Of a stretch of DNA of 64,000 bases, positions 714 through 60,761 are shown piece after piece. Below the pieces are notes generated by a model. It was not told the DNA's origin and did no database searches. It saw only the letters and a list, made by a program, of their open reading frames with translations. Numbering within the stretch: position 1 is the stretch's first letter; every line of letters begins with the position of its first letter. Source of the stretch: Loxodes magnus (Eukaryota; Ciliophora; Karyorelictea; Loxodida; Loxodidae); assembly GCA_946699065.1 (NCBI GenBank), contig CAMPDV010000024.1, positions 806,001-870,000 on the forward strand. The letters are read 5' to 3'. The position numbers and the translations under genes were made by a program.

Positions 714-3700
714 ATGTAAATCGAACTTTCTGAGATTGATTCTAGTTTTATTTCTTCGGAAACTTCTGCTTTGAACTAAGAGTTTAAAAGATTATAACCA
801 AAAGAGCATCCTTATACCGAATCCAGCTCTATTTCAAAGAGTCTATTTCTATGGATGTTTCCACTTCTATATTTAGGAAGAAGTAGACCTCTTCAGAATG
901 AAGATTTACCTTAAACAAGAGAGGAGGAAATGTAATGGACTAGGAAATGAAAAGAAGTATTTAAAGACTTCTAAAACTCTTCAAAATATCCAGTTTTATG
1001 AACATTCCTTAGCTGCTTTAAATGTAAATGATTAATATTCAGGATAAATAGTTTAAATCCTAGTGATAGGACTAATAACAAGTTTAATAGAACTGGGAAG
1101 TCCACTTTTCATTCCCTTATTTAAGGATTACATTGAATAGAAGAAAAGCTTTATATATGGCACCGCTCTAGTTTTGCTTATGATTATCTTATAAATAGCA
1201 AAGGTAATTACTCTCTTAATTTTATACTTTAGACCATTATATTTTGTAAGTAACGTTGGGTAAGACTTATGTGCTCAATTAAGGCAAGACTTGGAATATG
1301 CTTCTAAATTTATGACAAGAGTCTTAATATAAATTTGCTATCTTGTAAAAAATCTCATGGTGAGTTAGTTAATTTGCTCTAAGTAGATTCGGCCAACATT
1401 TATGATATAATACCTGCATATCCAAAAGCCTTATACATTCCTCTCAAAATAATAGGAGGCTGTGGTATTATTTTCTATTATAATGGATATGCTACTTTTG
1501 CTACCCTTTTAGTCCTTCTTTTCATTCTAATTATTACCTTTTTGGTTACTCGAGTTAACAAGGTAATATAAAAGAAGGTGATGGCAGCTAAGGATGAAAG
1601 GCTAAAGTACTCTTATGAAATATTCAATAATATAAAGCTCCTTAAGATGTATAATTGAGTAGACTAGTTCAAACTTAACTTACTAGCTATCAGAAAAAAG
1701 GAATTAAAGCTTGCTAGGTTAGCCAAATTTATCTAAGCTTTCAGAATTCTCTTCATATGATCTGCGCCTATTTACATGCTACTAGCTTTATTTATTACTC
1801 AAGTCTATTATTTCGGTAATGAGCTGGACTCAGTTAATGTGTTTACTACCATTTCAATTTCTCTTATAATAAGAAAACCTATTTTCAGTATGCCTGATCT
1901 AATAAGCGACACTATTACCTTATGGGTTAGTTTAAATAGAGTACATGAGTTTCTTAAATTTGACGAGTTGGAAAATGATCAAATTAGACTAGAAGGTTAG
2001 AACCTTAAGAATTACGACGTAGATATAAAGAAGATGTCTTTTGGTATATAGAAGAATTAGAATGATTAGCCAATATTGCATAGCATTAACTTATAAATCA
2101 GAAAAGGAGAATTTGTGGCCATAGTAGGAGAAATAGGGAGTGGAAAATCATAACTACTTTCATCTATTATAGGAGATTTATTTACTTATTACCAAAATAA
2201 GGAAAGCCACTTTTAAGTTAATTAAGGTTAAATAACTTACTGCAATGGATAAGAGCCATGGATTTAGAATGCTTCTATTTAGGAAAATATTTTGTTTTAT
2301 ACTCTTTTAGAATAATAGAAATATAATGATATATTACATACCTGTGCTTTAATCCCTGATCTTTAAGCATTACCTTCTGGAGACTAAACTATTGTAGGAG
2401 AGAAAGGAATTAATTTGTCTGGAGGTTAGAAAGCAAGAATAGAACTAGCAAGAGCAGCTTATTCGGATAAAGATATTATAATAATGGATGATCCTTTTAG
2501 TTCGTTGGATATTCATTCTACAACACACATACTAACATATTGCCTTCTTGGAACTTTGAAAAACAAAACAAGAATACTAGTTACACATCATCTGGACTTA
2601 CTTCCTCATGTAGATAGAATTATCGTAATGGATAAAGGAACTATTGTAGAATCTGGAACTTTTAACTAATTAAGTTAAGACAAAAATTCATTTTTCAGTA
2701 AAAAAATAGCTACAAGCTTCGCAAAAATAGAGAAAACTGATTAACCAATAGTTTAGCAATACTTCAAGTAAAAAAAAGACTAACTAATATAGATAGAAGA
2801 GAGAGCTATAGGAAAAGTACATTCTTCAGTATACAAATGGTACTTTGTATATGCAGGTGGTCTTACTACTATAATCACAATGATAATATTTTATCTTTTT
2901 TGAATTTTGATCAGAAATGGAGCAGATATTTATATGTAAAAATGGATTGATAAGAAAATAGAAATTTCCGATAAGGCAGGAATTTTAATTTATTGCTTTT
3001 TACATTTAAGTGCTAGTCTTCTCATAGTAGGTAGATCCATATATCTAACTTTTGTTGGGTTTAAAATAGCTAAAAAAATGCATAAGGATATGCTAGAGTG
3101 TCTAATTAGAGCTCCTATTAACTTATTTTACGATGTAACGCCTACAGGAAGGATCTTAAATAGATTATCCAAAGATCAAAATGACGTTGATGTTATTATA
3201 AACGTTCTAGGAAATACGATGATAAACTCCTTTGTAGTAATAGGAGCTGTCTTAGTTTGCTTCTATAGTCTTCCTTGGACAGTTTTAATTATTCCTATTT
3301 TAACGTTGAGCATGTATAAAATTTAGAATTTATATACTTGTTCATCAAGAGAGCTACAAAGAATACATAGCATTAACCTTAGTCCAATAGTGAGCTTTTT
3401 CTCGGAATCTTTGTGTGGAAGTAAGACAATAAGAGCATTTCAACTGTAGATATAAGTAAGAAACAAATTTCTAGGATTATATGAATAAGCTATTCGGTCT
3501 TAGTTCGTCAAAGAAGCATTGTCTGTATGACTCACTCTTTATCTATCTTTCAATTCAATCTTGATAATGCTTGTATGCTTGACTGCGATAGCTTTTATGA
3601 GAGATTTTATTGATGTAGGAGTAGTTGGCTTAATAATAGCTTATGTGCTTCCTTTATCAGGAAATCTAGAAAATTCAGTTACTTCATATACTTCTCTTGA

Positions 3701-4540
3701 GAATAAGATGGTATCAGTAGAGAGATGCAAATAGTTTACTAATATACTCAGTGAAAATTTTGGAAACGAAAAAAACCTCTAATTGGTTAGTAAACTTGAT
3801 AGAGGAAAGATTTAGTTTAAGAATGTAACTATGCGCTATAGGCCTCAAACTCCTATCGTCTTGGATAATATTAATTTTGTTATTGAACCTTCATAAAAAA
3901 TAGGCATAGCAGGAAGGACAGGTTCAGGGAAAAGTTCTCTTACCTAAGCATTATTTAGAATAGTTGAAATAGAGTCTGGACAAATATTAATTGACGATAT
4001 CAATGTTTAGCATATTAACCTTTCTACCCTTAGGGAAAACCTATGTATTATTCCTTAAGATCCTGTTCTTTTCATGGGAACATTGAGGTTTAACATAGAC
4101 CCCTTCCTATAATACGAAAGTGATAAAATAATTTAAACTTTAAAGGAAATCTAACTGTACAAGAAATTTGAAAATGAGGACATTCTAGAAAAAAAGATCG
4201 AAGAAAAGGGAACAAATCTTAGTGTAGGGGAAAGGTAACTTGTTTGCATTGCTAGAGCTATCTTGAAGTAAGAAAATTTAAATTTAGAAATTCAAAGATT
4301 CTAATACTGGATGAGGCAACTGCTTCTATTGATTTCAAAACAGATGAAATCATCCAATTCCTAATAAAATAAAAGTTTTAAGACAGAACAGTTTTGACTA
4401 TAGCACATAGAATAAATACTATTGAAAAAAGTGATAAAATTTTGGTTTTAGATTAAGGTAAAGTAGTAAACTTTGATACCTTCCAAAATTTACAGAAAAA
4501 TGTCAATTCTATCTTTAAAGATATTCAATTCGACCACTGA
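714..4540 (+). CDS. ABC transporter, ABCC/MRP-like full transporter
   Basis: Membrane ATP-driven exporter of the ABCC (multidrug-resistance-associated) type, two transmembrane domains and two nucleotide-binding domains. Translated with TAA/TAG=Gln and TGA=Trp it gives about 1255 residues. That fits short ABCC proteins without TMD0. NBD1 has Walker A GEIGSGKS (around residue 460), signature LSGGQ (around 555; the Q is TAG) and Walker B IIIMDDP, the Asp replacing the catalytic Glu as is usual in ABCC NBD1. NBD2 has GRTGSGKSS (around 1050), signature LSVGERQ and Walker B ILILDEA. Three introns (1024-1042, 1345-1364, 4268-4287) are needed to keep frame; the second is the least certain. The first in-frame ATG is at 714 and the stop is TGA at 4538. 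Substrate cannot be told from sequence. Family is certain; orthology to a particular MRP is not. Confidence 0.93.
1024..1042 (+). other. 19-nt intron in ABCC gene
   Basis: GTAAATGATTAATATTCAG. Removing it joins SCFK to the first transmembrane helix in frame; the Trp codon TGA is formed across the junction (T|GA). Confidence 0.8.
1345..1364 (+). other. 20-nt intron in ABCC gene (less certain)
   Basis: GTAAAAAATCTCATGGTGAG. A shift of this phase is required between the RVLIQICYL and LVNLLQVDSAN segments. The acceptor choice is inferred from length and the GT-AG rule. Confidence 0.55.
4268..4287 (+). other. 20-nt intron in ABCC gene
   Basis: GTAAGAAAATTTAAATTTAG splits the codon for the Lys just before the NBD2 Walker B (ILK|NSKILILDEA). 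The conserved motif on both sides makes it firm. Confidence 0.9.
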
Positions 4541-5306: not shown

Positions 5307-5781
5307 ATGATTCACATTTTGCTTTTAATTTCAAGGTAAGGCAAGTTGCGTCTTTCAAAATGGTTCACTTCTCATACCGGCAAGGAAAAGATGAAAATGA
5401 CACGTGAAATAACAGCACTAGTGTTGTCTAGAGCTCCCAAGATGTGTAATTTTCTTGAGTGACAAGATTATAAAATAGTGTATAAAAGATATGCAAGCCT
5501 TTATTTTGTTGCAGTAGTAGATAAAACTGAAAATGAACTATACGTCTTGGAAATTATACATCATTATGTAGAAGTCCTTGATCGCTACTTCAGTAATGTA
5601 TGCGAATTAGACATTATATTTAACTTCCATAAAGTAATCCTTCATGCAGGCTTATTATATTCTGGATGAACTCTTGATAGCAGGCGAACTATAAGAATCT
5701 AGTAAAAAGCAAGTGTTAAGAGTGGTTTAGGCTCAAGACGCTCTTATGGAAGAAGCTAAGGAAGAGCCTGTCAAAAGATGA
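5307..5781 (+). CDS. AP1S: AP-1 complex sigma subunit
   Basis: Small chain of the clathrin adaptor AP-1 (trans-Golgi/endosome sorting). The 152-residue product matches the family end to end: N-terminal [16 protein letters not shown], then [20 protein letters not shown], then [20 protein letters not shown]. Length compares with about 158 in animals. The FLEW motif favours AP-1 sigma over AP-2 sigma. The Trp of FLEW is TGA (5460) and the Gln of SRQGK is TAA, so this gene alone supports both reassignments. One 16-nt intron (5634-5649) lies between FNFHK and AYYILDEL. The first ATG of the frame is at 5307; the stop TGA is at 5779. Confidence 0.96.
5634..5649 (+). other. 16-nt intron in AP-1 sigma gene
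   Basis: GTAATCCTTCATGCAG, placed exactly between two perfectly conserved protein blocks (FNFHK / AYYILDEL). Confidence 0.95.
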
Positions 5782-7085: not shown

Positions 7086-7174
7086 TGATTTGAATTATGT
7101 ACTGATTGAAAATTTCATGGTAGTTTAATTATAAGATAAAGAGCTTTGAGTGATTAATTAAAAATTATTATAAA

Positions 7175-7555
7175 ATGGCCTAAATCATAGAAATAAGTTC
7201 TCCTGCTGTGTTTTAAGAAGAGTTTGAAAAAGTAAGAGAATCTGAGAAGTTATTCTTATGATTTTCTGGTTCTATCGATCCTTTGACTAATTAAAACTGG
7301 TGTTCTGATTGTGTTGCAGCTGAGCCAACTATTGAAACTGCAATCAAGAAAATGACTGATGGAGTAATTTTAAGATGTCCAGTAGGATAAAAAACTGATT
7401 GGAAAGGAAATCTAAGTCATCCCTATAGAAAATATGCAAAGTGTGTCCCGACAGTTATGCGTTTAAATAAAGGAACAGAAACCATTAAGCTTGAAGAGGG
7501 ATAATTATGTGATCAAGAACTGACTGATGAATTATTTACTTCCAATGAATTTTGA
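7175..7555 (+). CDS. TXNDC17: thioredoxin domain-containing protein 17 (TRP14-like)
   Basis: Cytosolic thioredoxin-fold disulfide reductase of the TXNDC17/DUF953 family, 126 residues (human about 123). The signature WCxDC is intact as WCSDC at residues 42-46, preceded by FLWFSGSIDP and followed by VAAEPTIE and the conserved cis-Pro region KCVPTVMRL. The Trp in FLWFSG is TGA at 7259. No intron. The ATG at 7175 gives an N-terminus MAQIIEISSP that fits the family. In animals the enzyme is reduced by thioredoxin reductase and acts on small disulfides and L-cystine; the same role here is inferred. Confidence 0.93.
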
Positions 7556-12470: not shown

Positions 12471-13292
12471 ATGGGAAAAGCTTCTAAGGATAAAAGAGAT
12501 ATATATTACCGACTTGCTAAAAATTAAGGGTTCAGAGCAAGGTCAGCGTTTAAACTTTTATAGCTTAATGAGTAATTCAATTTTTTAACTGGTAAAAACT
12601 CAGCAGTTGATCTTTGTGCAGCTCCTGGATCATGAAGCTAAGTACTTAGCTAGCAGGGAATCAAAAAAATAGTTGCTGTTGATTTATAAGAAATGGCACC
12701 TATTGAGAATGTAGATATTATACAGGGAGATATTACTAAAATGGAAACTGTTTAAAAAATTCTAGCAAGTATAGGAGGAAAAGCTGAAATTGTAGTTTGT
12801 GATGGAGCACCAGATGTAACTGGATTACATGAACTTGATTAGTATCTATAGCATTCTCTTGTAATTTCAGCTTTAAACATAACTACACTTGTTTTGTAGA
12901 AAGGTGGTATTTTTATTGCCAAAATATTCAGAGGAAAGGATATCTCTTTGCTGTATAGTCAATGCTAGTAATATTTTGAAAGAGTTGTAGTAAGCAAACC
13001 AAAAAGCAGCAGAAATGCAAGCTACGAAGCTTTTATAATCTGTTAAAACTTCTAACTTACTCCTGAAATTGAATAGAACGTTGAACTTTAACTATAAAAT
13101 ACTCTTAATTTGTAAGGAAATAACGAAGCTATCCCTGAAATGATAGCATGTAGTGGAGCATGGGATGCCGATTTAAACTATGTACAAACAGAGGAAAGTT
13201 TAGGACCAATTGCACCTCCCATTAATGCAGCATATTAGACATACATAAAAATGTTCAAGCAAGGGTAGAAAAATTAGACTTAGCAGGAATGA
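12471..13292 (+). CDS. TRM7: tRNA (ribose-2'-O)-methyltransferase Trm7/FTSJ1
   Basis: SAM-dependent 2'-O-methyltransferase of the RrmJ/FtsJ fold that modifies the anticodon loop (positions 32 and 34) of certain tRNAs. The 273-residue product (yeast Trm7 310) starts MGKASKDKRDIYYRLAKNQG, has the SAM motif DLCAAPGSWSQVL (Trp55 encoded by TGA), the presumed catalytic Lys28 in RSAFKLLQL, GAPDVTGLHELDQY, GGIFIAKIFRGKD and SKPKSSRNASYEAFIIC. It keeps the C-terminal segment that distinguishes the eukaryotic cytosolic enzymes from mitochondrial MRM2, ending with an aligned PIAPPINAAYQ. No intron. Stop TGA at 13290. In yeast Trm7 works with Trm732 or Trm734; neither is in the window. Confidence 0.96.
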
Positions 13293-13813: not shown

Positions 13814-14653
13814 TCAAGAAATTTCGAAAATATAAGGAAAATTTTCTTCCTTTTCCAAACTTAAAGCGTCGCTTTTTAAAATAGCGCATTGGAGTTTGTT
13901 TTTTTCAGATACAGCTGCATCAAGAATAAGTCTATTACTTTCTTAAATGAAATAATATGGCTAAAAAGAATTTTCCTCCATAACTCTGTGGTGTCCAGAA
14001 ACTACTATGTATCCAGCGTCTGAATCATTAAACTCTACGTTTACTCTACCTCTTATTTATAAAGGAAGTTTACCTTCTTTTAAATAGCTTAAATCTTTCA
14101 GCTTTAATTAATTAAGTTAGTCAATCAAAGGGATATTAAAAGTTCTTAATATTCCAGCGTGAACAAATAAATAATTGTTCACTATAAAATATCAAGGTAG
14201 GCTCCTCAAAAATTGAAAATGACTTTAGGGAAAATTTTAAAGGAAAGATAACTTATCAGTTGCTTTATATTGTTCTCATGTTTATGGATAATTATATTCA
14301 AAATAATTATCTTTTTTAATTCATTTACTCCATCAGTCAAAAGACCTCGCTCTAAATATTTCTCCATCTAATGAATTTAGCATAGTGAGATCATGGTTAC
14401 CTATTATGCTGAATATTTTTCCTTTATATTATTAATGACTTTTAATTAAAATTTCTAAAGTTTAAGGAACATCAGGTCCATTATCAACATAATCTCCAAG
14501 AGTTACAATAATAAAATCTTCTTACTACTTTGTTTCTTTTAAATACAATCTAGCATATTCAATAGCTTTTAGAAATAAATCCCCATGTCCATGAATATCA
14601 GCAATAGCTAAAATAGGTAAGTTTGTTTAAACTTAGTTTAATCTCTCTTCCAT
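13814..14653 (-). CDS. PPP-like calcineurin-type phosphoesterase
   Basis: Predicted 279-residue two-metal phosphoesterase. All core motifs are present in order: DIHGH (Asp19, His21), GDYVDNG (Asp54, Asp57), GNHD (85-88), FVHAG and SGHHRV. The layout resembles bacterial-like PPP phosphatases of protists and plants (Shewanella-like or ApaH-like groups) rather than PP1/PP2A: it is short, ends soon after the last His motif, and has GNHD where PP1/PP2A have GNHE. The usual Arg of GDxVDRG is Asn58 here, which would remove a phosphate-coordinating side chain. The ATG is at 14653; the first in-frame TGA after the conserved part is at 13816-13814 and is taken as stop. Substrate unknown. No transmembrane segment or signal peptide seen. 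Confidence 0.82.
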
Positions 14654-15031
14654 TAATGAATACTACAATTCACAAATTAAGAGCCAGTTCTGCTGCAACT
14701 GTTATTAAGAAGCCTATAATTAAACAATATTTTCCTTTAATGATATTTGGAAACAATTTAATAATTTAAGACTAAAATACGTTTAACTTCTTCTAACTTT
14801 CTCATCAACTTATATCATAGAAAGACTATTAACAACTACCATCTTCTTATATCCCATATCATATTAGTTTTATATACTATGAAGATGTATTTCATATACA
14901 ATATTCTAGCTTTGCATCTTTAAATTTCCCAAACTATAAAAATAAATGTTTCATGTAATCTCCTCAATTTATAGTTAGTGAGAAACAATTTCGTTATAGT
15001 AATAAATTATTGTTAAAATTATATTTAAAAA
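14654..15031. other. intergenic between divergent genes
   Basis: About 380 AT-rich bases, presumably promoter DNA for both flanking genes; no defined element seen. Confidence 0.5.
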
Positions 15032-24337: not shown

Positions 24338-24682
24338 ATGAACAGAGAATCTTAAGCAAACAAAGATAGGGATGCACTAATAAGAGATAGTAAGCTATAT
24401 TAATAAATTAAAGAGAATAAAGTATATGAAGATATAGTAATAATAGTTGATAAATACATAGCAACTAGATATATTATAAAATGGATATATCTAATCTCTT
24501 TAAATAAATAAGGAACTGTATTTATAAAGATTAAATATAATCTTATCATATTTTAAATGAAAATAGATGGTTAGTTTATGTTGCTTCTAGTATAAATTTG
24601 TTATATTATAAATAAATATTATTGTTATGGAAGAATCTATTAGATTGTGGAATTTGTAGTCAAACGAAATTCCTTTCATTGA
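24338..24682 (+). CDS. possible small ORF upstream of MORN gene
   Basis: ATG 24338 opens a frame whose first 50 codons look protein-like and G-first-codon biased (RDALIRDSKLYQQIKENKVY followed by EDIVIIVDKYIATR). It then becomes AT-noise-like and reaches TGA only at 24680, overlapping the MORN gene in another frame. A truncated gene, an upstream exon or chance are all possible. Confidence 0.25.
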
Positions 24683-25187
24683 TAACTAGAATCAAAATTT
24701 GGACGCATGAGAAAAATCTAATTTGGAAAAATTGAATTTAAAGAGGAGTTATATATAAGGAGTGACTTCGTTTACTTAATAAGTTTTGGAAGTTAGAGAT
24801 CCTGATGCGAAAAGAGTAGATGTATCAGTTAATGGTTTTTATGTAGGAGAACTTGATTAAAACTTCTTACCTCATGGAAATGGAAGATGTGTATGAAAAA
24901 ACCATGGCAGTAAATATGAAGGTGAATGAGAACACGGCCTTTGTCATGGAACTGGAAGATTAATTGATAGAACTGGAAGGAATTATGTTTTCTGAGGAGA
25001 AAGAATACATGGAATTCCTCATGGCTATTGCTATTATGATAATTTTTTAGAAGGTACAAAAAATTAAGGCTATTATAATAAAGGGAAATAAATTGGTGAA
25101 TTCATTTAAACTGATTAAAATGGTAAAGTGTAGAATGTTATTTATAAGGCAGATTCAACCTATATAAAATTTAAGGTTAAGCAATGA
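24627..25187 (+). CDS. MORN-repeat protein
   Basis: 186 residues, ATG 24627 to TGA 25185. Three to four MORN units are visible: FYVGELDQNFLPHGNGRCVW, then YEGEWEHGLCHGTGRLID, then YVFWGERIHGIPHGYCYYD, and a weaker GYYNKGKQIGEFIQTD. MORN repeats bind membranes or act as structural rods and are common in cortical and ciliary proteins of ciliates. Four Trp are TGA, two of them at the fixed aromatic position of the repeat, which independently supports UGA=Trp. No other domain; the specific role is unknown. Confidence 0.88.
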
Positions 25188-26338
25188 GTTGGATAAATTT
25201 TTATAATTCATTTATTTTAGCAAAAAAATAAAATCAAGAAGATGTATTTATTTTTATTTAAATAAGATAAATATAGATAGCATTCTAAATATCATCTCAA
25301 ATCTAATTAAGCAAGAATTTAAAATTATATTTAGTGAATTTAATGTTTTCGAGACCTTGCCAGTTTATTAATTTTCTACTAAGTAAACAATGTTTTGCAA
25401 ACTATTTATAAGCTTGTTGCTATTATAATCATATACTTTACTTTTTTATTAATGTAGCAAAGCGCTCTAAGCATCTCTTTTACTAAAAGACTTTTCTGAA
25501 GATATATATGATTGTGAATATTTAAATTGAATAGAGTTATAGTTAATAGTTGCTATAAATAATGAAATAAGATATTAATTTTATCTACTTTAAAAAGCAC
25601 AATCAAGCAAGAACTAATTCAAGAATTTTAGTTTTCTTTGCATTTCTGTAAAGAATTCCATTGCTTGCTAACTTATAAAAAAGTAATATGAAATGTAAAA
25701 AAGTTAAATTTATAATTTCTTGTGTTCTGCAAGAATTTAGGAGTATGAACTAAAATTGAATTTAATTAATGTTTTCAATTAAATCTAAAGTAAAGATATA
25801 ATGATAGAATAATAAAGATATAAGGATAATTTTAATATACTATTGTTCGTTTTATTTTAGCATAATATTTCATATTTACTCTGCTCTGCTTTGTCATATT
25901 TGGTATATTTACACTGTTAATTATAAAATTACCAGCTATTTTAAACTTCCTCAGTATAGTTAATATTTAAAGATGAAGACTTAAAAAGGAATTACTTTAT
26001 ATGGTTGAATTAAGTATAAATTTATTAGATAGTTGAATATTAAAATACTTAATCTTTGAAATTGATGGATTAACATATATTTAAGATCAATATCTACCAT
26101 AAATTATTACCCTTCTGCTTAAAAAACAAAATAGCTCTATATTATACAAAAATACTTTTGCTAATAACAGAGCGAAAGGCAGTTTATTTAGAATGATAGA
26201 AAGAGAGTGAGAGTTTTAGTAAAATAGAAATAAAAAGAAAGTAGAGTTAGTATTTAGAAGGAAGCATTTTAATTAAAGGATAATTTTAATTGTTTATATA
26301 GAAGAGAAAAATAAATTTCTAGCTCTGAAATAATTAAA
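25188..26338. other. intergenic, AT-rich
   Basis: About 1.15 kb, no recognised feature. Confidence 0.5.
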
Positions 26339-29358: not shown

Positions 29359-29401
29359 CTTATTTATTATTTCTGAAATACCATTTCCAAACCTTTTGTT
29401 G

Positions 29402-35090: not shown

Positions 35091-35635
35091 ATTTTTAATA
35101 TCTAAGTATACTATAAATGTAATTCTTTAAAATAAGCTTTACTATATATTAATAATATCAAAAAAGTAAGCTTTTCTTATTTCTTTCATTTGCTTTGCAA
35201 CTTTTGCTTATTATTCTTACCTTTAACTCTTTTCTCTTTAAACTTCAAATTAATTTACACAGTTAAACTTCTTAAATGATCTTATTGTTGAATACTATTC
35301 ATATAATCCTTTCTTTAATAGTTTTATCTTAATTGTTGATAATTAATGCTTGTATTCTTAAACCTTCTTAGAAAGTATTTTTACCTTTAGTTAAATAGAT
35401 AAAATTAAGTATTGTTATTTTCCCTTTCTGTTATAATGATTTATATATATCTAAAGTATTCTCTATTAAGTACTTTAAAACAATTAGCATCTAAACTAGT
35501 TATTCATAGGATAGATATCCTTATTTAAAGCTTAGTGCTTAAGTTAAATAAGTATAAGAGGAGAATAAAGGTTATAAGTAGAAGAGGAAGATATTAGTGT
35601 TTGGTATTTTTAAATTTAAAAATATTAATGATTCA
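35091..35635. other. intergenic
   Basis: About 545 AT-rich bases, nothing recognised. Confidence 0.5.
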
Positions 35636-36365
35636 TCACCACTTATCACTTTGTAACGCTGCATAAGAAGCTTGGTTCCAATCACTTTTTAGGGTGTAAG
35701 GGTCAGATATTTAAATTCCTGCATTTGAAACTTTTGCCATTTAAATCTGCAAATAAAAAATTACTTTATTTCCAGCAGTTAAATCTCTATAAACTAGCTC
35801 TCTCCAGCAAAGTTCTAGCAAACCTACGGCTTGATTTTCATCTAATTCAGCAGTCCAATTATTTTTTATTATTGGAGGAACTAAGTATCGAGCTAAACCA
35901 GTGAGAACATTAGTTTCATTTTCAAGTACTAAACCATATTGATCAATCTAAGCTAAGTAGAATCCACTAGTCTGGGAGTTAATTCCTGCTACTACAATTG
36001 AGCACCACTTAGGTTAAAGTTAATTTCTCCAATAGTAAAAATAAGAACTTATTCTTTTTGCATATTCCTATGGCTGAACGATTTTTCCATCTTAATATAA
36101 CCAGCTTTCTTTTTATATTTCCTTCATTTTCCTTACTACTTCCTAAAAGTCTGCTAGCTCGCCTGAACCAGTGATCAATGTATAATCATCAATTTATTAA
36201 AACCAGTTTATGTTTCTATGTTTTTTTATGCCATGCTTAATAGCTTAAGTATCATTGACTAGCATTATTCCATCTTTATATCTAATACCTATGACAGAAG
36301 AATTAACTACAACAGGCTGGCTATATAAATTAAAAGACTTACGGAGGATTGGTTATGAAATCCAT
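35636..36365 (-). CDS. PSMB4: proteasome subunit beta type-4 (beta7)
   Basis: Non-catalytic beta7 subunit of the 20S proteasome. After removal of two introns (36321-36342 and 35747-35764) the product is 229 residues: MDFITNPPQPVVVNSSVIG, IRYKDGIMLVNDTQAI, then ITGSGELADFQEVV, GFYLAQIDQYGLV and SDPYTLKSDWNQA, in line with PSMB4. The N-terminus lacks the catalytic Thr context, as in PSMB4, and the prosegment is only about four residues (animal PSMB4 has about 45). The gene ends in two consecutive TGA codons (35638-35636 and 35635-35633). The start codon lies inside a short palindrome (36360-36381). Confidence 0.9.
35747..35764 (-). other. 18-nt intron in PSMB4
   Basis: GTAATTTTTTATTTGCAG. Its length is a multiple of three and it has no TGA, so retention would insert six residues; alignment to animal PSMB4 (YRDLTAGNK|IQMAKVSNAG) favours removal. 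Confidence 0.8.
36321..36342 (-). other. 22-nt intron in PSMB4
   Basis: Begins GTAAGT and ends TATATAG. Splicing joins MDFITNP to PQPVVVNSS in frame; without it no ATG gives the family N-terminus. Confidence 0.85.
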
Positions 36366-36381
36366 TTTATTAAAAATGGAT
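36360..36381. repeat. palindrome at the PSMB4 start codon
   Basis: Arms ATCCATTTT and AAAATGGAT separated by ATTA. The PSMB4 initiation codon (36365-36363, minus) is inside one arm, so the mRNA start could be in a hairpin. Confidence 0.6.
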
Positions 36382-37911
36382 CATAAAATCCATTTTGCTT
36401 AAAATTTCTGATTTCCTTTTCTTTTCAAATCATTTCAATTATCTTCTATTAAATACCTTTTCTATTCAAATCTTCTCCCCATAAAATGCGAACTATGCAC
36501 TCATTACTCTTCTTAGTAATTACTATAACTTTCCTTTTTAAAAGCAGTGAGTTATATAAAATAAAGACAAATAATTTAGATATTTCCTTCTGAGTAGAAT
36601 TGCATTAGACATTAAGATAAACTAGCAAATAGCGAATAAAGAACTAAAAAGCATTAAATTAATATCATAAACACATTAAATTACCAAGATTAAAGTAGAA
36701 TCTAATCTTTTCTTATCTAAGCAGGCAGGCTAATAATAAGAAATGAACATTATATAAGTTAAATAATAAAAAGAAAGTAACTATATTAATCTATATTAAT
36801 AATCTATCAAAGCTAGTTATTCAGAAAATAATTGAATTATCTAAATTTAATATAACCATAAACCATTAAGGAAGCTTATTTTATGATATAAGATTAAGTG
36901 TCCTTATCTATATATCTAATTTGATTAGTAGATTATCTTTATTTAGCTGGTTAATTAAAATTAATAGCTAGAATAAATTCTTAAGCTTTTATTTATTAAG
37001 GTTTAAAAAATAGGTCAGAGAATTAAGCTAAATGGTTGCTGTAGAGATATTAGCTATAGAAATAATAGAAGATACTTAATATTTAGAACTTATAAATTTT
37101 AGAATTAGGCAAATAAAAAGAAAGTAATGAATCCAATAATTTTAAATTAAATCTCTAGTGAAAACATAGTGGAATGAGAATAAAATTGGAATTGTATCAT
37201 ATTAAGAATTTTGAAATATACTAATAAACTTAAATTAAAAAGAAGCAACAATTTTCAATAGCAAACGTAAATATACTTTCTTATTAATCCAAACTTTAAA
37301 TAAATTAAAAGGTTTATTTTCTTTATAAATGAGTAGCCAGCAACTATAATAAGAACTAATTTTAACATATTAATTTAAAAGTTTCATTTATCAATACTTT
37401 TAATATTTCTAAAGAGTGCTTTAATTAAATTTAATGAAAATGACTTTATTAATTATATCTTATACAAATAAGTTTATTTTTCCATTTGTTTTAAATCTTT
37501 CTTATTGATTTGGCTAAAATATCATTACAGTTGGAATATTATAACTTCTACAGGTTTATGAAAGATTAATTTATCATTATACCGGATTATATCTTTCACG
37601 CTCATGTTATTTTAGTTTTATCAATCTAAAGTTAATTATTTAGTTATAAAAGGCATTTTAAAATAAAACATATTCAATAGCATTTCTCAAGCAATTATTT
37701 CAAGGGTTTAATAACTTTGTAGATAGTATTTATAAAATTCTAGTACATAATTAAAAAAATAATTCAGAAGTTGCTTCACTCATAGGAGCAGAATTTAAGA
37801 GTTTAGTTATAGTTCAAAAATATGGGTTCATGTATTTTGATTTGTAGATTATGCTATTTAAGAAAGATTTAATTTAGAAATATATACGATAAATAAAATA
37901 GAAATATCAGA
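36366..37911. other. intergenic, AT-rich
   Basis: About 1.5 kb. Around 36380-36610 (minus) and 37030-37130 (plus) open stretches have protein-like patches, but they conflict between frames and I could not build a gene. Confidence 0.4.
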
Positions 37912-46897: not shown

Positions 46898-47479
46898 TCA
46901 AGCATTGACGGACTACAAGTTAGCTCCATCTAGTGCTTTATTCATTAAATTCTACTTCTACTCATTTTCTTCCTCATCTTTCTTTTTCTTACGAATAATT
47001 AAGAAAGCTACAACTGCAACAATAATAATAATGATTATTATAATGATAATTATCCCTCCAGATCCAGAACTTTCTTCTTCTCCTTCTTTTACAGGATTAG
47101 TTGTATTTGACTGAGAAGTTTCATTAGAATTTGGAGTCTCTGTTTAGTTGCTTTATTAGGAAGTTTAATTTTATGTTGCTTATTATTATGTTTCGTTTGA
47201 AGTTGTTTAGTTTGAAGTTGTTTCAGCTGTAGTTTAGTTGGAAGCTGGTTCAGTTGTAGTTTAGTTGGAAGTTGTTTCAGTTGATGTAGTTTATTCGGAA
47301 GCTGGTTCAGTTGTAGTTTAGTTGGAAGTTGTTTCAGCTGTAGTTTAGTTGGAAGTTGTTTCAGTTGATGTAGTTTAGTCGGAAGTTGTTGGGTTTGCAG
47401 GATCTACAATAGGATCCTCATCTGGTGTTTATGCATATGAGAAAGCCAATAAAACTACAATTAGAATAGCTTTGTTCAT
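46898..47479 (-). CDS. mucin-like type I membrane protein with N-glycosylation sequons
   Basis: 193 residues, ATG 47479 to TGA 46900-46898. A signal peptide (MNKAILIVVLLAFSYA) is followed by a Thr/Ser/Glu/Gln ectodomain made of imperfect repeats of TTSNQTT, TTEPAS and TSTE (about residues 31-96). A single membrane helix is mostly poly-Ile (about 143-162), then RKKKK stop-transfer and an acidic tail. Ten N-x-T sequons lie in the ectodomain (N44, 53, 72, 81, 90, 95, 104, 111, 119, 125); seven are N-Q-T with Gln encoded by TAA. The layout suggests a heavily glycosylated surface protein. Repeat copies at 47200-47400 are near-identical in DNA. Confidence 0.85.
47200..47395 (-). repeat. imperfect tandem repeats in mucin-like gene
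   Basis: Units of about 24-30 bases built from the coding of TTSNQ, TTAETTSNQ and TTTEPAS; several copies are identical over 20 or more bases, which suggests recent unit duplication and possible length variation. Confidence 0.75.
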
Positions 47480-47879: not shown

Positions 47880-48137
47880 ATTTAACTTTTAAAAGGCAAT
47901 ATACTAAAAAAACTTATATTCAAAGTAAGTTAAATTAAAGTTTTTATACTTACTATATAAAAATTTAATTAGAAGTCTTGCAATTCCATTTAGACCATAT
48001 GGTTAAGCTAAAATATATTAGAAATTTTTAAACAAAGCATGATGAGATTCATTAGTTAAAAATAAAGAAATGCAAATAAAGGATTGTAGAGTGAGAACTT
48101 ATATTAATTTCATATTTTTATTAATAATAATTTAAAA
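47880..48137. other. intergenic between divergent genes
   Basis: Probable 5' regions of both flanking genes; an ATG at about 47990 (minus) might belong to a first exon of the secreted-type ORF. Confidence 0.35.
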
Positions 48138-51556: not shown

Positions 51557-54500
51557 ATGTTTGAAAAGTTTGTTGAGAAAATTCTCTAGAGATACTGCGG
51601 AGAATTTCTAGTTAACTTTGATAGTAATAATCTATAAATTGGAGTTTGATCGGGAAATGTGACTATGTAAAACGTACTGGTAAATCCTGAAGCAATTAAA
51701 AGGAATTTTAGTTGATTACCTATTAGGCTATTGATGGGGAAAATTTAAAACCTCAATATGTAAGTGCCCTGAAATAAATTATCTAGTTCTCCTGTGATAT
51801 GTACTATTGAAGGTGTTTATATAACAATAATTCCTCAACATTTTGAAGATTGGTAGTTTTATGACAATTATTCAGTAGAACATAGAAACTATTTAATAGA
51901 AAAATACGAATAGAAATTACAAGAACTTAAAATAAGCGCTTAGGAAAAGCTATAACAGCAAGGATTTGTTTCAAAGTTGACTTCTAAAGTACTAGATAAC
52001 GTATAAATAACAGTGAGAAACATTCATATTAGATATGAAGATGCTTCAAAAAGCATAGCTTGTGGCATAACTTTAGATGAACTATCTATCGCTACCACTA
52101 ATGAGTATTGGTTCTCTCAATTTAAAATAAGAACTTAAGAAGAACTGGAAAATTAGATTATTCACAAAATGGCTACTATTAAGTAGTTTGGCTTCTATTT
52201 TTAAACAGGATAAAGCAAAATGGTTTCTACAATCTAAGATCCTAATGAAATCATTAACCAACTCAACTGAATGGAAAATTTCAGCTTTCTGCTAAATCCA
52301 ATGGACGCTTAAATAAAATTAAAGTTATAGGAAAATAATTCTCCCTAAACGGAACTTTCAGCAGAATTATAAAATTTTGATTTAAATTACTCAAGAGAGC
52401 AGCTTTTATGTTCATTAGGTCTTATTGAAACATCTATTAAATATATGGGTTTTATTGAAACTCACAGTGTAAAGAGAAAATATCGACATCTTAAACCTTT
52501 ATAGCGTCCTTTAGAATAACCAATCGCTTGATGGAAATTTGCTATATCTTGTGTTGTTTATGAAATAAGAGCTGGTAAAGGATAAAATTGTTTTTAAATA
52601 AGCTAATCTTAAATGGCCAAATGAGAAAAGACCTTTAAAGATGTCCATTTTAAATTAAAAAAGAACAAGAATTTAACAGAAAGTGAAGCTTTAGACTATA
52701 AGCAAGTATTAGAATGCTGTGAAATAGAAAAAATTTATGAATGAACAGCTTTTACTGTCAAGCTCATTGAGCAAGAGGCAGAAAAACTATAGGAATTAAA
52801 GAAATCAGCTTCATTAAAATAAAAAGGCTTTTTTTACGCATTTAAGAGAAAAGAAACTAGTGATATATAACTTTCTGAAAATGATTATCAAAACTTATAT
52901 TAATTGGTCAATTTTGAAAAAGACAAACTACCTATGCTAAATTTTCCTCCTGATTTCGTGTTTTTAAAATTACATTTCGTTTTAACCTCGGGTCAAGTTA
53001 TGTTGAGCAACAAATTAAATACAGGTAAAGAAGAAGGTTTACTTTTCTCCTATAAAAAAGTATAAATTGATTTGCTATAAACAAAAAATGACTTAGATAC
53101 TTCAATCTTAGTTAAAGAAATCAGTCTAATAAACTACGATAAATTCTCCGCGAATGAAATTATCAATACCAAAATTTTGAACTTTCAAGAATCATCAAAA
53201 GATGCCTTCTAGTTAACCTACTTCAATAATGAATAAATCACTAACATTTCTATTTCCGTTCTTCCTGCTGAATTGCTATATCATTGTCCTGCAATCAATC
53301 GAATTATAGACTATTTCAATGTTCCTAACGTAGATTAGGAGTTTAAAGACAGAGCATGGGATAAATTCTAGCAAATATAAGATATAAGCAAAAGTAAGTT
53401 TCAGTAAGCACTTCAGCTTAAGAAGAAGAAAATATTTAATTTCTAAGTTGAAGAGTTCATTTTGACTCTACCCATTTAGAAAAACTTAAATCCTTCCACT
53501 CCAGCTTGGATATTCAAATTTGGGTAAATACAATTACAAAATAAACTAGCAACAGAAGAATTTGAGAGCTATTAACTTCTTATTCCTAATTTTAAGTTAC
53601 TTTTCGTAGAAAATTCTTTTAAGTACTCTTAGGACAAAATTTCTACAGAGACAATACAAGATTTTTCCTTAGAATGCTTGTTTAAGACAAATTATGATGA
53701 TTAAATATGTAAAAATGAAGTAATTGTGAACATTTAGCAGATCAACTTGATTCTATACCAAAAAGTATATCATTATTTAGCCTCTATTGGTTAAGCCTTT
53801 AGTCCCTCTTCTTCTGAAGAAGGATTCGAAATAATGTAGTAAACTAAAACATAATTGTTAAAGTAGGCTGTGTGCATAAACAGAATAAGCATCAACAGAG
53901 GATCAAACTTTATAACAGGAGTAGGGATAATTTCCTTTGGATATATTTATTTCTTTTAGAATCATGAAGATTTGTAAGCTAAGTATTATTACTACCTATA
54001 AGACTGCAAGATAGATATTCTTAAGGAAATAGAAAATTGCATCAAATTAAAAAATAGATATGGCTCTATAGAAATAGTATTTGAGAGCTAATAAATTATG
54101 AATAAATGAATCGATTAAATCTAAAAGAAAGTTAGACAAATTACTTAAATTACTAGTACCAAAGTAGAATAAAAGCAAGATCCTAATGTTTTAAGGACTA
54201 AAATTGATATAAAAATAGATATTTTGAATCTTGAGTTTAGAGATAATATGAATTAAGCATGGCTAAAAGTAGGAGTTTAAGAAACTGCAATAGAACTCAA
54301 GAGTAAAGCTTATGATTCTTTTATGAGTCTAAGAATTGGAAGCTTTAATGTTACTGATTTAATGAGTAATGAGAATTATTAGCATATGATAAAAACAAAG
54401 AGTGAAGGAAACAAATATCTAGAGATTTCTATAATAAGCGTTACTCCTGATCATCCTAACTATGCTAACAAAGATTCTTAAATTGACATAGAACTAGCCG

Positions 54501-57500
54501 AATTGGATATAGATTGACATCTACTAACTCTATAACGTTTAATGGATTTTCTCTAAAATAACGTACCTCCTGAACTGTAGCAATAAAATATTACTGCAGA
54601 AAATAAAGAAAGTAAAATTTAGCTTAAATCTGAAAGTGAAAGAATATATATGAACCTTAATTTGAAAATTAAAGAGCTTAATATTACTTTACCTATATAG
54701 GAGCATTAATTCTAACTCGGCTAAATGAAAATTTAGAGCTTAAACACGCAAGTAGTTCAATACCTAAATAAGTAAATAATCAAGGGATCTCTAGAATAAT
54801 TTCATATGATTGACTCAACTAACTGACCAGCAACAGTTCTATTCCCAAAAGATCCAAACCTTTTTAATCTAGTTTAGGCAAAGGAACCAGGCTAAGGTTT
54901 CTTTAATTTCGAAATTTCGTTAAATAAAGAAAAATAAAGTATGATTAGTATAAACTTAGATATTAAAGGGCTACAAATTTTCTATTTGCACTAAATGATA
55001 TCAAGATGATCTGACTATTTTAATAACAAGATTCTTGGAGTTTTTTCAGAATATGAAGAATTCTTAGAAGATAAAGAGTTAGAAATAGCATAAAAGAAAA
55101 AGTTAGATAGAAGATTAAAACTTGAAAAATAAGGATCCAAATTTATTGAATTAATTGAACATAACTTTGTACAAGAAGAATAGCAAGATTAGAAGAGTTT
55201 TACATAGTTCAATATCCAATTGCATAATCCACTTATTTGGTTGATTCCAAGACCAAAGATGAAAGATCAAGCAATACAAATTGACTTAGGAGAAATCTGT
55301 ATTAGTAATGAGTAGAAAATTTCTGAAGATAGAAGTGAGGATGTGGAAATATGAGTTGACATTATGAAGATAGAAATGAGAGATATGAAACTATCATAAG
55401 GAATTTCAGATTTGTGCGAGCCTTTTAATTTGGATTTGACGCTTGAAAGACCTCTATTCTATGAAGATTGAGAAAATGAAGAAGATGTCGATGCTTCATA
55501 TAAAATTGAAGGAAAATGCAAAAATCTTCATTTGATAATGTCTCAAGCTAATTTTACAACCCTTCTTACTATTTTAGATCTTAATATTCTATATGATGAT
55601 AACCTTCAGTATAAGTTTTAAAGTAGTTAATAACAAACTATAAAGCAGCAAACTGATCATGGAGGCATTATGATGAGTATGCTGATCGATTTTGACTTAA
55701 TACTACTTACATTAGTAGATTCAACTTATAATTCCCTTATCTGCAATTTATAGTTCAAAAATAAAAAAATTAATGCTATTCATTACAACGATTGATTTAT
55801 GGACTTAACTATAAGCTCAGATATGCTGCAATGATTTTAGAATTAAGAAAATATAGAACAAGCTTTGCTTAATGAAAGTAAACTAGATTTGAGACACAAG
55901 CTTGTAATCAAATTTTAAAAATAAGCGAATGGTGGAAAAGAAATAGAAGTAATAATGCAAAATATGATGGCTAACTTTCTTTATGGGTAAATAATGCCAG
56001 TCTTTAACTTTTTCTATTATGGACTTCCTAATTACGAAGGTAAAAAAGATACACCTTTTGATAATTTAACAAAATGAAAAGCTCCTCTTGTTGAACTTTC
56101 AGAATATCTCGCTCCTAAAATGACATTTAAAATTAGATTGGAACATCCTATAATTGCCTTGCCCATTCCTCAGAGTGAAGTTTGCATAGTAGCAAGTTTC
56201 GACATGCTCTTTTACTTCAACAGAGAGAAAGGTTTGCCTTTGAAAGACTAAATAGGAAAATAATTGGTTCATTCAGTAAAGCAGATAAATCTAAATAAAG
56301 TAGAGCTATTTATATGCAAAAACACAAACTAAGAATTAAATAACATACTCTAGTAAAAACGCTAGCTAATGAGTCCATTTTAATTTGAATATATACAGAA
56401 AACATCCATGAATAGATAAGAAAATTTAGCAGAAGTTTATACCTATAATACTTAGATCAGATTAGATAAAACTTTTCTTCGTTCAAGTATTTAAGACTTA
56501 ATATTTCTACAGAAAGCTATAGACCATTAGAAGAAAATATATTCAATAAATAATGATACTATCAATTTTCTTACTATTTAGACAGAAGAAGAAGAAGATT
56601 CAAGTGCTACATTTAAGGGAAGTAGATAATAATTTGTCCCAATCAAGAACTTATAGCTCGATAATTTAGAATCTATTTCAAGAAAAACCTCTGTTAGAAC
56701 ATGAAAAATGATAGTTAAAAAGAACGAATTGAAGGATGAATAGCTAAAGTAGGCTATGAATTTCTTTGAAAACTTAAAATTCAAAGTTAATTAACTACAA
56801 GTTGTAATAATCAATGATGTGGGTGGAGCTTATATTCCTGTCATTTAATTCAAACTTATCAATTTTAATTTGGAGAAGGATTATAAAAATGGAGTTACTA
56901 ATTTAAATGGAGAATGCTCAATAGGCTCAGATTATTATAATCCAATTGCAGGATGTTGAGAACCTTTTATAGAGGTCTTTAAGACATAGCTTGAGTATTC
57001 CTATAATTCATAAGAAATACCAAAAAGTTAAATATAAATATAAGTAGATCCAGATATCACTCTAAACATAAACATAAGTGAAATGATGATTAGATAATTA
57101 AATTAGGCATATTCTAGCTTTTAAGAAGAAGTTTTAAGTCTTTCTTAATAAGTTTCTCCTTTTTCATTTGAGAACTAAACTGGCTATCCTCTGGTTATCT
57201 ACTGCTAGAATAATTAAAACATATCGTTAAATCAAGGAGAAATAAAGCCTGTTATTATGGATTTCTTCCAAAGTATAGCTCAGTAAGGAATGCTTGCAAA
57301 TGAGACTTTTGATGTTTCTATTGAGTATAGTAGAAATGAATCTTCAAGAATTGATAAAGTCTCCTTAGAAAAGATAGGAGCTCATTTATATTGAATAAAG
57401 AAATAAAACAATAACCAAAAATTTTTACTCTTCACTCACAGTTTCATAAAAGATAGTAGAAAATTGCTAATTTTAAGATCCTCAGTCATCATAAATAATT

Positions 57501-60500
57501 TCACATAAATTGCCATTGCTTTCTGCTTTCAAGATAGTGAAATCATAATTCCTCCTAACAAAAGTTACCCTATTCCATTTGATTAAGTAGATTAAAACTT
57601 ATAGCTTTATATACAAGCAAGAAAGGAAAATGTAAAAGGATGCTTATTGGTTCTAAAGTAAATTAGAGCTCTTCTTCACAAATAAAAAGAGGAAAACCAA
57701 GAGATATAAATAGAAAACTTCTACTTCACTCTTATTTCTGAAAGGTCCTTTAATAGCAAACTAATGATTAATATTTCTCTTTATCCTCCAATACTATTTA
57801 GAAACACTCTACCTACCTCTATAAGTTTGCGCATGTAAGGTTATGTAGATAAGGATTTAATTAAAAGCGAGAGTAATTTAGAAAAAGGCTAAGAAATCTT
57901 CATACATGAGTTTCCTTAAAAAGCTATATTAGAAATATAAATTTTGATGCCTGGATTTTTATGAAGCTCTTATCAGACACTTATTAATATAAATGGCCTA
58001 GTTTCTAAAAAATTAAAAATAGCAGACTTCAATAAAAGAGTCCTGAGCATTGGTATTGAAAGTAAGTTAGACAAATTCCTAGAAATAACATTCTTTGCAA
58101 AGTTAGCTATCATCAATAAAACAAAGATGCCTTTAATCTTCTTCAGAGAAAAAACTATTGGTAGAGATTTATTACCAGGATAGGTTACTCAAAAACTTCC
58201 TAATATTATTCTTGGTCCAAACGCTAAAAATATATTAGGCATAACTTATTTAAACGAATATGCCACTGATATAAAACCTTTTGCAGCAGGAGTAAAAAGC
58301 TATATAGATTTTGATGGTCCTATATGTGAGGACGGAAGATATTAGAAATATTAATTCGGATGCATTTCTGAGTTGTGATACTCAAATTAGTATTCAGATA
58401 ATTTAACTCCAGTAGTTACTATCGCACCTAAGTATTATTTCATTAATTAGCTAAGCTTCAACATTCAAATATAACAAGAAAATTGTTCTGATGGAGTTAT
58501 TATATTAAAACCTAATGAAACTTTACCTTTTTATTGGTATGATGGAAGATAAAAAGAAGTTTTAAGGTTGTGTGCTGATTAATATGAGTGGTCAGGCTTC
58601 TTTGATTGTAAAAGCACAACTTTAAAATTGAAAAATTAGAAAGAAGGACACAAATTTATTTTAATAAGAGTTGAAGTGCAGCTGAAGGAAATAAGCATGT
58701 ATGTCAGTTTTAGTTAGGAAGATAATAAAACATGCTCTTATAAAATCATAAATCACTCACATAGTATTTCAGTTAAAGCATACCAAATAAATACTAATGA
58801 TGATCTCTTTATCGATACTTTATCCTAGGTACCTTTTGGATGAACCAATCCAAATGATAAACACAAAGTTAAACTAGAATTTTATGTTGGTAGCTTTACT
58901 TAAACTCCACTTCATGCGAATAACAAGATTTAAGTAAACTTTGAAAAGCTAAACAGGGAATAGAGAGTTAAAGTTATGCATACTTAAGAGATAGGATATA
59001 TGATTTATATCTTTGTAAAATCAGAAGGAGTTACAAAAGTACTTTCAATTAGTGATTCTCCATTCTATCAATAGCAGGAAGATGATATTTAATCATGCAT
59101 AAATATAAATATTAAATAGTTTGGCATTTCTTTAATAGAGAGCTCTGATGTTAGAAGAAGAGAAGTTTTTTATTTATGGGGTAAATATGCTCAACTACAA
59201 ATTTGTGATATGCAATAGTCAAGAAAGATAGAATTTTAATTGAAGACTCTTTAGGTAGACAACAATCTTACTCCATTCCCTTTCTATCCAGTGCTACTTT
59301 CAACATAAATTTAAGAGGTTAAAAAGCCAGTATTATAAATAGAAGTACAGTACCCATTTAGTTAGCAAAATTCTGCATTTAACGTAGAAAGTTTCTATTT
59401 TTAGTTATAGCCAATTTCCGCTAAAATTGAAGAGTATGTAATTAGGACAATTTTTATGGTAATATCTCGAGTTTTTGCTTAAAAAACTAAAGTGCATTAA
59501 ATATTCATTTCCTAGGAGAATCAAGAAAATGAAGTAATAGAACCAATAGGAAAAGGAACATTCTTTAAAGAGTTTACTATCTATCCAATACATATTGATT
59601 TGAGCTTCACTCTTTCTCAGAGTTAGGAAAAAACTAAATCCATTTCTGAAGTAGTAAAATAAGCAGGAATTGCACTTATCAACTTAGACTAAGCTCATAT
59701 TCATCTTCAAGCTGTTTAATTATAAAACGTTCACTCTTCTTAAGGTGGAATAATGGATATTTTGGGTTAGTATTATAAAGGTTTGCTTCTCAAAGAATTT
59801 TATGACATTTTAGGATCTACAGATATCATAGGAAATCCGATAGGCTTAGTTACTACTCTTAGTAATGGATTCAAAGATTTTTTTTATGAGCCCAGAATAG
59901 GTTTTGCTTCTGGACCTATTTAAGGAGGAAAGGGAGTTATAAAGGGAACAGGTAGTCTTATCAGACATACCTTTTAAGGAGCTTTCAGCTCAATTTCAAA
60001 AATAACGCATTCATTTGCAAATGGCCTAACCATTCTGTCTTAAGATTAAGAATATATAATAGAAAGAAATAAAAATAAAGATGAACTTCCAAGAGATGTC
60101 ATATAAGGCATTGGGCAAGGATTTAGATCTTTTTATCGTTCTGTTGGTACAGGAATAACTGGAGTTTTTAAGCAACCTTATTATTAGTCTAGATAAGAAG
60201 GATGAAAAGGTGCTTGCAAAGGTTCGGTAAAAGGAATAATAGGATTATTTATTAAACCAATCGCTGGGTTTTTTGATATAACTAGCAAAACTGCTGAAGG
60301 AATAAAAAATACAACTACATAATTCGAAGAATAATCGAATTCCTAACGTATAAGACCTCCACGTGCATTTTATGGGAATTATAAAGTAATGAGAGAATAT
60401 AATGAATATGACGCTGAAGCAAAGTAATTTCTTGCAAAGGTAGATACCAAACTCTACTAACTAAATTTTTTGACTCAAGCAATAATAGTAGATAAGAACT

Positions 60501-60761
60501 AAAAATAATGCATGATTATTCTAACAACCTAGCAGGTTGCTCTAATCAATATTTATAAGGGCAATGTCATTTTGAAGTTTCCTATAAAAGAGTTAGATAA
60601 AATAGAGGATGAATCGAATATAGTTAAATTCCTCTACTAGAAGAAAAAAGTAAATTTTTATATAGGTTTAAACTATATAATTTTAGTATGAAGCCGAAAA
60701 GGAAAGAATACTAAATGAACTAAAGGAACTGAAAGCTCAGTTAAAGCACTAACTTTATTGA
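51557..60761 (+). CDS. VPS13: VPS13 bridge-like lipid transfer protein
   Basis: Rod-shaped bulk lipid-transfer protein at membrane contact sites, 3062 residues (yeast 3144). The N-terminal chorein domain begins MFEKFVEKILQRYCGEFLVN with LQIGVWSGNV and VRNIHIRYED. A long beta-groove region follows, then the VAB/adaptor-binding region (from about residue 1850, FSFENQTGYPLVIYCQ). The C-terminal signature starts near residue 2755: IIGNPIGLVTTLSNGFKDFF, YEPRIGFASGPIQGGKGVIK, SKITHSFANGLTILSQDQEY and FIKPIAGFFDITSKTAEGIK. A PH-like end domain and a short coiled-coil tail complete it. One frame carries the whole gene except a 16-nt intron at 60650-60665. Some 30 TGA are read as Trp. ATG 51557, TGA 60759. 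Which VPS13 paralog is not determined. Confidence 0.96.
60650..60665 (+). other. 16-nt intron near the 3' end of VPS13
   Basis: GTAAATTTTTATATAG. Spliced, the tail reads YEAEKERILNELKELKAQLK and stops at 60759. Retained, the frame meets TGA at 60698 and 60716 and then stays open for hundreds of codons. Confidence 0.85.

Follow-up and report, generated by a model that had tools for sequence, protein, structure and literature searches.

How are genes terminated when all three stop codons also occur inside them? The question is raised by a 64,000-nucleotide stretch of the ciliate Loxodes magnus (Karyorelictea; NCBI GenBank assembly GCA_946699065.1, contig CAMPDV010000024.1, positions 806,001 to 870,000 of the forward strand), called the window throughout. 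An original prediction held that UAA and UAG encode glutamine here and that UGA is read as tryptophan internally and as stop at the end, as in karyorelicts, and masked homology, gene ends and codon depletion ahead of the stop all support it. The window is very probably macronuclear karyorelict DNA under NCBI translation table 27, with UAA/UAG as Gln and UGA as Trp in the gene body and as stop near the 3' end of the mRNA; the working steps are ones that we infer. Table 27 is already the published code of L. magnus, and since the pre-stop signature, among other features, matches the published species, the code of the window was already known. The contribution here is a masked homology test, an independent depletion result and a testable explanation, in the release factor eRF1, for stop-like UAA versus UAG. 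Where no codon is reserved for stop, a genetic code can mark the end of a gene by position instead of by codon. Codon meanings and gene ends were read from DNA sequence and homology.

A codon hidden Markov model (HMM) run without any stop rule found 24 coding segments in the window, one of them extending for 12,099 nt in one frame and covering more than one gene. Across all 24 segments TAA, TAG and TGA occur 51, 21 and 9 times per thousand codons. Introns escaped the plain HMM and the intron-poor models, which put the ends of the ABC transporter and AP-1 sigma genes in the wrong place and were superseded by intron-aware models that allow GT-AG introns of 15-32 nt; these in turn fuse some genes, for example at 33813-36750. 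Internal to 21 complete models of the window (12,883 codons) are 640 TAA, 263 TAG and 90 TGA codons. Pfam, searched with 19 of the 24 segments, returned a family above cut-off in 10 of the 19, naming an ABC transporter with a clathrin adaptor small chain, a TXNDC17-like protein with CFAP97, a Na/Ca exchanger, an FtsJ methyltransferase, a calcineurin-like phosphoesterase, MORN, MATCAP, a metallo-beta-lactamase fold, a proteasome subunit and VPS13. Genes that bear on the reading of the code are the following, with positions in the window.

714-4540, + strand: ABC-C (MRP-like) transporter; 40 TAA, 18 TAG and 8 TGA in frame; 20-nt GT-AG intron 4268-4287; terminal TGA 4538-4540
2427-2429, + strand: TAG as the Gln of LSGGQ in the ABC transporter
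5307-5781, + strand: AP-1 complex sigma; Gln of SRQGK is TAA 5337, Trp of FLEW is TGA 5460; 16-nt intron 5634-5649; terminal TGA 5779-5781
7175-7555, + strand: TXNDC17-like gene; terminal TGA 7553-7555; start further upstream in the intron-aware model
12471-13292, + strand: Trm7/FTSJ1-type tRNA 2'-O-methyltransferase; Trp of APGSW is TGA 12633; terminal TGA 13290-13292, with TAG codons just upstream
24627-25187, + strand: MORN-repeat gene; TGA in frame at 24708, 24894, 24927 and 24993; terminal TGA 25185-25187
26001-27754, + strand: MATCAP (KIAA0895-like) tyrosine carboxypeptidase; TGA 27173 at a Trp column, TGA 27077 at a Tyr column
35636-36676, - strand: proteasome subunit; terminal TGA 35638-35636; the intron-aware model reads through into the next gene
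51557-60761, + strand: VPS13; 133 TAA, 64 TAG and 23 TGA in frame; TGA 51647, 51770 and 52529 at Trp columns
VPS13 3' end, + strand: 16-nt intron 60650-60665; terminal TGA 60759-60761

The conserved motifs on which the prediction was built are present letter for letter. TAG and TAA fall on the Gln of LSGGQ (starting at 2415) and of SRQGK (starting at 5331), and TGA on the Trp of APGSW (starting at 12621) and of FLEW (starting at 5451). TGA 51647 of VPS13 is aligned opposite a Trp of VPS13C. The in-frame TGA codons claimed for the MORN gene are likewise there, and two of them, 24927 (following YEGE) and 24993 (following YVF), stand at what we take to be the aromatic positions of the repeat.

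For a wider test, seven queries with X at each TAA, TAG and TGA were aligned to solved structures, giving 3037 aligned residues. The count took a single chain for each gene, and two for VPS13, with all printed blocks of domains with an i-Evalue <0.001; it left out three domains that were not significant (ABC domains 1 and 4 and VPS13C domain 3), incomplete blocks and further chains of the same proteins. It superseded a preliminary count on selected blocks, in which TGA faced Trp in 7/14 columns and TAA or TAG (TAR) faced Gln in 21/109. Of 17 masked TGA columns 7 hold Trp, an enrichment of 36-fold over background (p=4.7e-10), and of 169 TAA+TAG columns 23 hold Gln (3.2-fold, p=1.2e-6); no residue is more significant than Gln at either TAA (16/120) or TAG (7/49). 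In the same divergent alignments TGG faces Trp in 7/16 columns and CAA+CAG face Gln in 7/50, no better than the masked codons. Two eRF1 genes elsewhere in the assembly give a further comparison.

G000:C196:19713 and 54613 (L039, L040): two eRF1 genes, 95% identical, 35 kb apart

Here 9 of 20 aligned TAR codons lie opposite a human Gln, a residue that fills 19 of the 416 columns overall. Among the 60 codon differences between the two paralogues, those that involve TAR are CAA/TAA and TAG/TAA, both (2/2) synonymous under the table 27 code.

As predicted, each of the five named genes is readable to a final TGA (ABC transporter 4538, AP-1 sigma 5779, Trm7 13290, MORN 25185, VPS13 60759), and two additional genes, TXNDC17-like (7553) and the proteasome subunit (35638-35636, - strand), are readable to TGA as well. 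Three of these ends, in the ABC transporter, AP-1 sigma and VPS13, become visible only after splicing of the short GT-AG introns at 4268-4287, 5634-5649 and 60650-60665. The final exons of the ABC transporter and AP-1 sigma align with the C-termini of their homologues, and the AP-1 sigma alignment picks up at residue 110 after the intron, directly following the 109 residues aligned before it. The TXNDC17-like gene matches its Pfam profile to position 118 of 119, and eRF1 is aligned to residue 431 of 435, its paralogue sharing the same end. In all five genes aligned past their last TAA or TAG (the ABC transporter, AP-1 sigma, the TXNDC17-like gene and the two eRF1 genes) the next candidate stop is TGA; because the alignments extend beyond the last TAA/TAG, TGA is the only stop that remains. 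Homology does not decide the ends of VPS13, where a TAA stands 3 codons before the TGA, and of Trm7, which has TAG codons in its final 10, and alignment anchors the MORN and proteasome ends only loosely.

A likelihood scan with ab initio gene models, in which all 64 codons were tried as stop, ranked TGA first in the window, at +35 log units when emissions had been trained under TGA and at +22.7 when training used no stop rule, and TGA alone beat stop combinations. In a held-out 200-kb flank TGA was again the first single codon (+7.5), and in a reversed-sequence control it ranked 11. We give the scan little weight, since the same procedure applied to start codons did not recover ATG (outside the top 5 shown in the window, rank 11 in the flank) and since two-stop sets beat TGA alone in the flank. 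Noncoding-like tails occur in 10 of 121 TGA-ended models and begin after TAA in 0 and after TAG in 1, in a set where models can fuse genes. Occasional TAA/TAG stops may exist.

Codon use ahead of the stop was counted in 264 kb, comprising the window and 200 kb of the same contig, in the 81 of 129 models that were complete, had at least 100 codons and exceeded a log-odds of 25 (58,100 codons). The last 20 codons contained a single TGA where 10.6 were expected (p=6.6e-4, with no correction for the 64 codons) and 45 TAA where 85.5 were (p=1.7e-6), whereas TAG was not depleted (48 against 41.6, p=0.3). As proportions, the last 20 codons and the remainder hold TGA at 1/1620 vs 367/56318, TAA at 45/1620 vs 2971/56318 and TAG at 48/1620 vs 1445/56318, and no other of the 64 codons is as strongly biased in these positions as TAA and TGA. 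The share of TAA among Gln codons falls from 2971/6034 elsewhere to 45/142 near the end (p=3.9e-5), and that of TGA among Trp codons from 367/613 to 1/11 (p=8.5e-4). The 21 models of the window alone give, uncorrected, TGA 0/420 (p=0.12), TAA 10/420 (p=0.0115) and TAG 13/420. An enrichment of CAA before the stop in the window (14/420, p=0.018) was gone in the larger set (40/1620, p=0.34). UAA thus behaves like a latent stop, depleted ahead of gene ends despite being a sense codon. The 60 nt downstream of the stop have a G+C (GC) content of 19.1%.

These properties can be set beside the published description of L. magnus, which gives a macronuclear genome of 706 Mbp, table 27, a GC content of 18.6% in 3' untranslated regions, introns with a mean length of 19.3 and a mode of 17 bp, and a run of about 20 codons ahead of the stop in which UGA and UAA, unlike UAG, are depleted (PMC11441545). 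Assembly size, AT-richness, short GT-AG introns, UAA/UAG/UGA as sense codons, UGA as stop, the identity and reach of the depleted codons and the post-stop GC content all agree with that report (PMC11441545). The modelled introns are most often 17 nt (50/135) or 16 nt (40/135), from a gene model that favours frame-changing introns. As in Parduczia sp. and Condylostoma magnum, all 64/64 codons are sense, the terminal codon is set apart by position and a pre-stop depletion is present; unlike C. magnum, which also stops at UAA/UAG, TAG is undepleted here and no anchored gene ends at TAA/TAG (PMC4967479). Three features of table 27 were found: UAA/UAG as Gln, internal UGA as Trp and a scarcity of in-frame UGA directly ahead of the stop. 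On a fourth, UGA as the sole stop, the five genes aligned past their last TAA/TAG agree, and the scan of the flank leaves room for TAA or TAG; bearing on a fifth, a very short 3' untranslated region with poly(A) near the stop, low GC downstream of the stop was observed.

Which tRNAs read these codons was searched for in the whole assembly of 705,730,643 bases. A Trp/UCA pattern made of the anticodon arm and T loop gave 131 matches (3 in a reversed control), and among the 100 matches listed 48 lie in an array on contig C67, 45 in an array on C148, 2 are single genes on C110, 3 are tRNA-Sec (selenocysteine) and 2 are not tRNAs.

G000:C67:482321-491201 (L036, L037, L043): tRNA-Trp(CCA) tandem array, at least 48 copies, period about 187 bp
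G000:C148:155462-167692 (L041, L042): tRNA-Trp(CCA) tandem array, at least 45 copies, period 241 bp
L032, L033 and L035: three tRNA-Sec(UCA) genes
G000:C103:669738-672972; C78:681122-688206; C158:171420-182004: tRNA-Lys(UUU), regularly spaced in small tandem arrays

The 14 array copies read have a CCA anticodon and an anticodon stem of 4 pairs, with the other stem pairs kept. Positions 27:43 are mismatched as A.C in the copies read from C67 (10 of 48) and as U.C in those from C148 (4 of 45), and are paired U-A in both single-copy genes on C110. The 72-nt tRNA is identical in the C67 copies read, with spacers of two types, and the spacers differ between the two arrays. The prediction had pointed to a UGA-decoding tRNA-Trp. 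No UCA form of it was found: a UCA-only pattern over the whole assembly, which fixes bases of the anticodon stem so that variant tRNAs would escape it, matched only the 3 tRNA-Sec genes (63.5 to 73.9 bits) and 1 non-tRNA. The candidate that did emerge is the CCA tRNA with the 4-bp stem, which may support UGA readthrough. Such tRNAs are known from Blastocrithidia nonstop, C. magnum, Blepharisma, Loxodes and Amoebophrya, that of Loxodes having been reported by others, as cited in PMC13092985 and PMC12005148. The likeness extends to the broken 27:43 pair, the CCA anticodon and the failure to find tRNA-Trp(UCA) (PMC13092985, PMC12005148). Here, among the matches listed, 93 of 95 tRNA-Trp copies sit in the two tandem arrays with their two different mismatches, and no statement on tandem arrays of this tRNA was found in the available portions of PMC13092985 and PMC12005148. 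The three tRNA-Sec genes mean that UGA may carry a third meaning, selenocysteine; C. magnum also has tRNA-Sec (PMC4967479).

For UAA, one tRNA(UUA) was found at C7439:1252-1324 (- strand, 55.6 bits), which resembles tRNA-Gln. On C245, neither ARAGORN nor Rfam recognised the two CUA-like matches as tRNAs. A first suppressor-tRNA pattern had 0 matches, and a second had 10, against 23 in its control, one of the 10 being a tRNA. Rfam gave 0 matches over the window, and ARAGORN 0 tRNAs over the window and 21 neighbouring loci. A control search with the tRNA family returned 42,786 first-look candidates. Scores were obtained for 63, and 57 of these share an identical score of 74.0 bits and are spread over many contigs; the 15 genes read, at 14 places, all encode tRNA-Lys(UUU), and some are arrayed. 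The array form is therefore not peculiar to Trp, and the idea that the Trp arrays are a special amplification for UGA reading was set aside.

Both eRF1 genes keep NIKS and GGQ, and the catalytic Gln of GGQ is itself encoded by TAA in both. Relative to human eRF1, L040 carries E55A, T58R, S60Q, N67V, S123T, L124F and Y125F, in agreement with the aligned human chains. A further gene that matches eRF1_1, with in-frame TAA/TAG and one TGA, lies on another contig (L038, G000:C2:1762690-1763037, - strand), and looks like a Pelota/Dom34 gene. In Table 1 of PMC4698671, which credits a private communication, E55Q supports release at UAA/UAG/UGA of 75/35/80% and Y125F of 100/34/100%. By these values changes at both positions weaken UAG in particular, and E55A with Y125F would explain why UAA and UGA, and not UAG, are avoided before the stop.

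From the results obtained directly, that is, codon meanings by homology, pre-stop depletion and the sequences of the tRNAs and eRF1, we infer a mechanism in four steps. The many-copy tRNA-Trp(CCA), with its anticodon stem of 4 pairs and unpaired 27:43, would insert Trp at UGA. UAA, and perhaps UAG through wobble, would be read by the Gln-like tRNA(UUA). Owing to E55A and Y125F, eRF1 would still recognise UGA and UAA, and UAG little. Close to the poly(A) tail, eRF1 would then outcompete the tRNA at the last UGA, and UGA and UAA would be selected against just upstream; this last step has been published as a model for Condylostoma and Parduczia (PMC4967479). The fuller proposal is tentative, and we would sooner bet against it than for it: eRF1 would read UGA and UAA and have largely lost UAG through E55A and Y125F, so that UAA, a sense codon, would keep a latent stop function towards the mRNA end and UAG would be fully freed; UGA would mean Trp, Sec or stop, with Trp supplied by the 4-bp-stem arrays; and pre-stop avoidance would be a read-out of eRF1 specificity. 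If the eRF1 link is true, codons that vanish before gene ends could reveal, from sequence alone, which stops a release factor still recognises. We found no report linking these eRF1 changes to the avoidance in the literature surveyed, which excluded the main karyorelict-code paper (10.24072/pcjournal.141) and a critique of the 4-bp-stem work, and claim no novelty for it.

Several observations weigh against this account of the code and its mechanism. Residues other than Trp (V, N, D, I, H, T, K, S, Y, D) stand opposite ten of the 17 aligned TGA codons, and the TAA columns hold as much Ser as Gln (17/120 vs 16/120), with Ser the less enriched of the two. Coding GC is 28.5% in our models against 33.5% published for L. 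magnus (PMC11441545), and the published eRF1 assay concerns E55Q, whereas the gene here has E55A. The held-out 200 kb, in what is a weak scan, scores TAA+TGA 6.7 and TAG+TGA 2.7 log units above TGA alone. This last point favours a Condylostoma-type code (table 28), in which TAA, TAG and TGA are all sense and can all terminate, as does the depletion of TAA ahead of gene ends. Against it, the stop is TGA in 5/5 genes aligned past their last TAA/TAG, TAG has no pre-stop depletion, TGA alone scores best in the window, and the noncoding-like tails described above begin after TAA or TAG in a single model, a point weakened by fused models; we consider table 28 very unlikely. More improbable still is a Blastocrithidia-type code (table 31), with UAA/UAG as Glu, UGA as Trp and UAA as stop. 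Glu is indeed enriched at the masked TAA/TAG columns (16/169, 1.7-fold), but Gln is stronger at 3.2-fold, LSGGQ, SRQGK and GGQ demand Gln, the anchored gene ends are TGA, and the tRNA(UUA) resembles tRNA-Gln. That the genes follow the standard code, their in-frame stops arising from pseudogenes or assembly errors, has no supporting point that we could find and is next to inconceivable given the 640 TAA, 263 TAG and 90 TGA codons inside the 21 complete models of the window (12,883 codons), their presence in conserved genes including eRF1 and the alignment of masked stops to Gln and Trp.

A further alternative leaves table 27 in place and concerns how UGA comes to be read as Trp: by tRNA editing, by an imported mitochondrial tRNA-Trp(UCA) or by a UCA tRNA that was missed, the 4-bp-stem arrays then being ordinary tRNA-Trp repeats. 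The numerous, partly arrayed tRNA-Lys genes speak for it, and arrays alone are no proof of a role in UGA decoding; the search pattern, with its fixed anticodon-stem bases, would also let variants escape. The UCA pattern nevertheless matched nothing beyond the 3 tRNA-Sec genes and 1 non-tRNA, and the 27:43 pair is missing in both arrays through different bases while present in the two single-copy genes. We regard such a route as unlikely, though with a better chance than any of the other codes, and retain the 4-bp-stem tRNA-Trp(CCA) as the candidate reader of UGA.

Two further named genes of the window also carry in-frame stop codons.

13814-14857, - strand: calcineurin-like phosphoesterase; TAA, TAG and TGA in frame
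28353-29358, - strand: metallo-beta-lactamase-fold gene; TAA, TAG and TGA in frame; 3' end uncertain

Beside the latter, positions 29434-33815 form 4.4 kb with almost no coding signal amid dense genes. At 46898-47479 (- strand) the window encodes a mucin-like, Thr/Ser/Gln-rich tandem-repeat protein with a signal-like start, a membrane segment and repeats of 27/84 bp.

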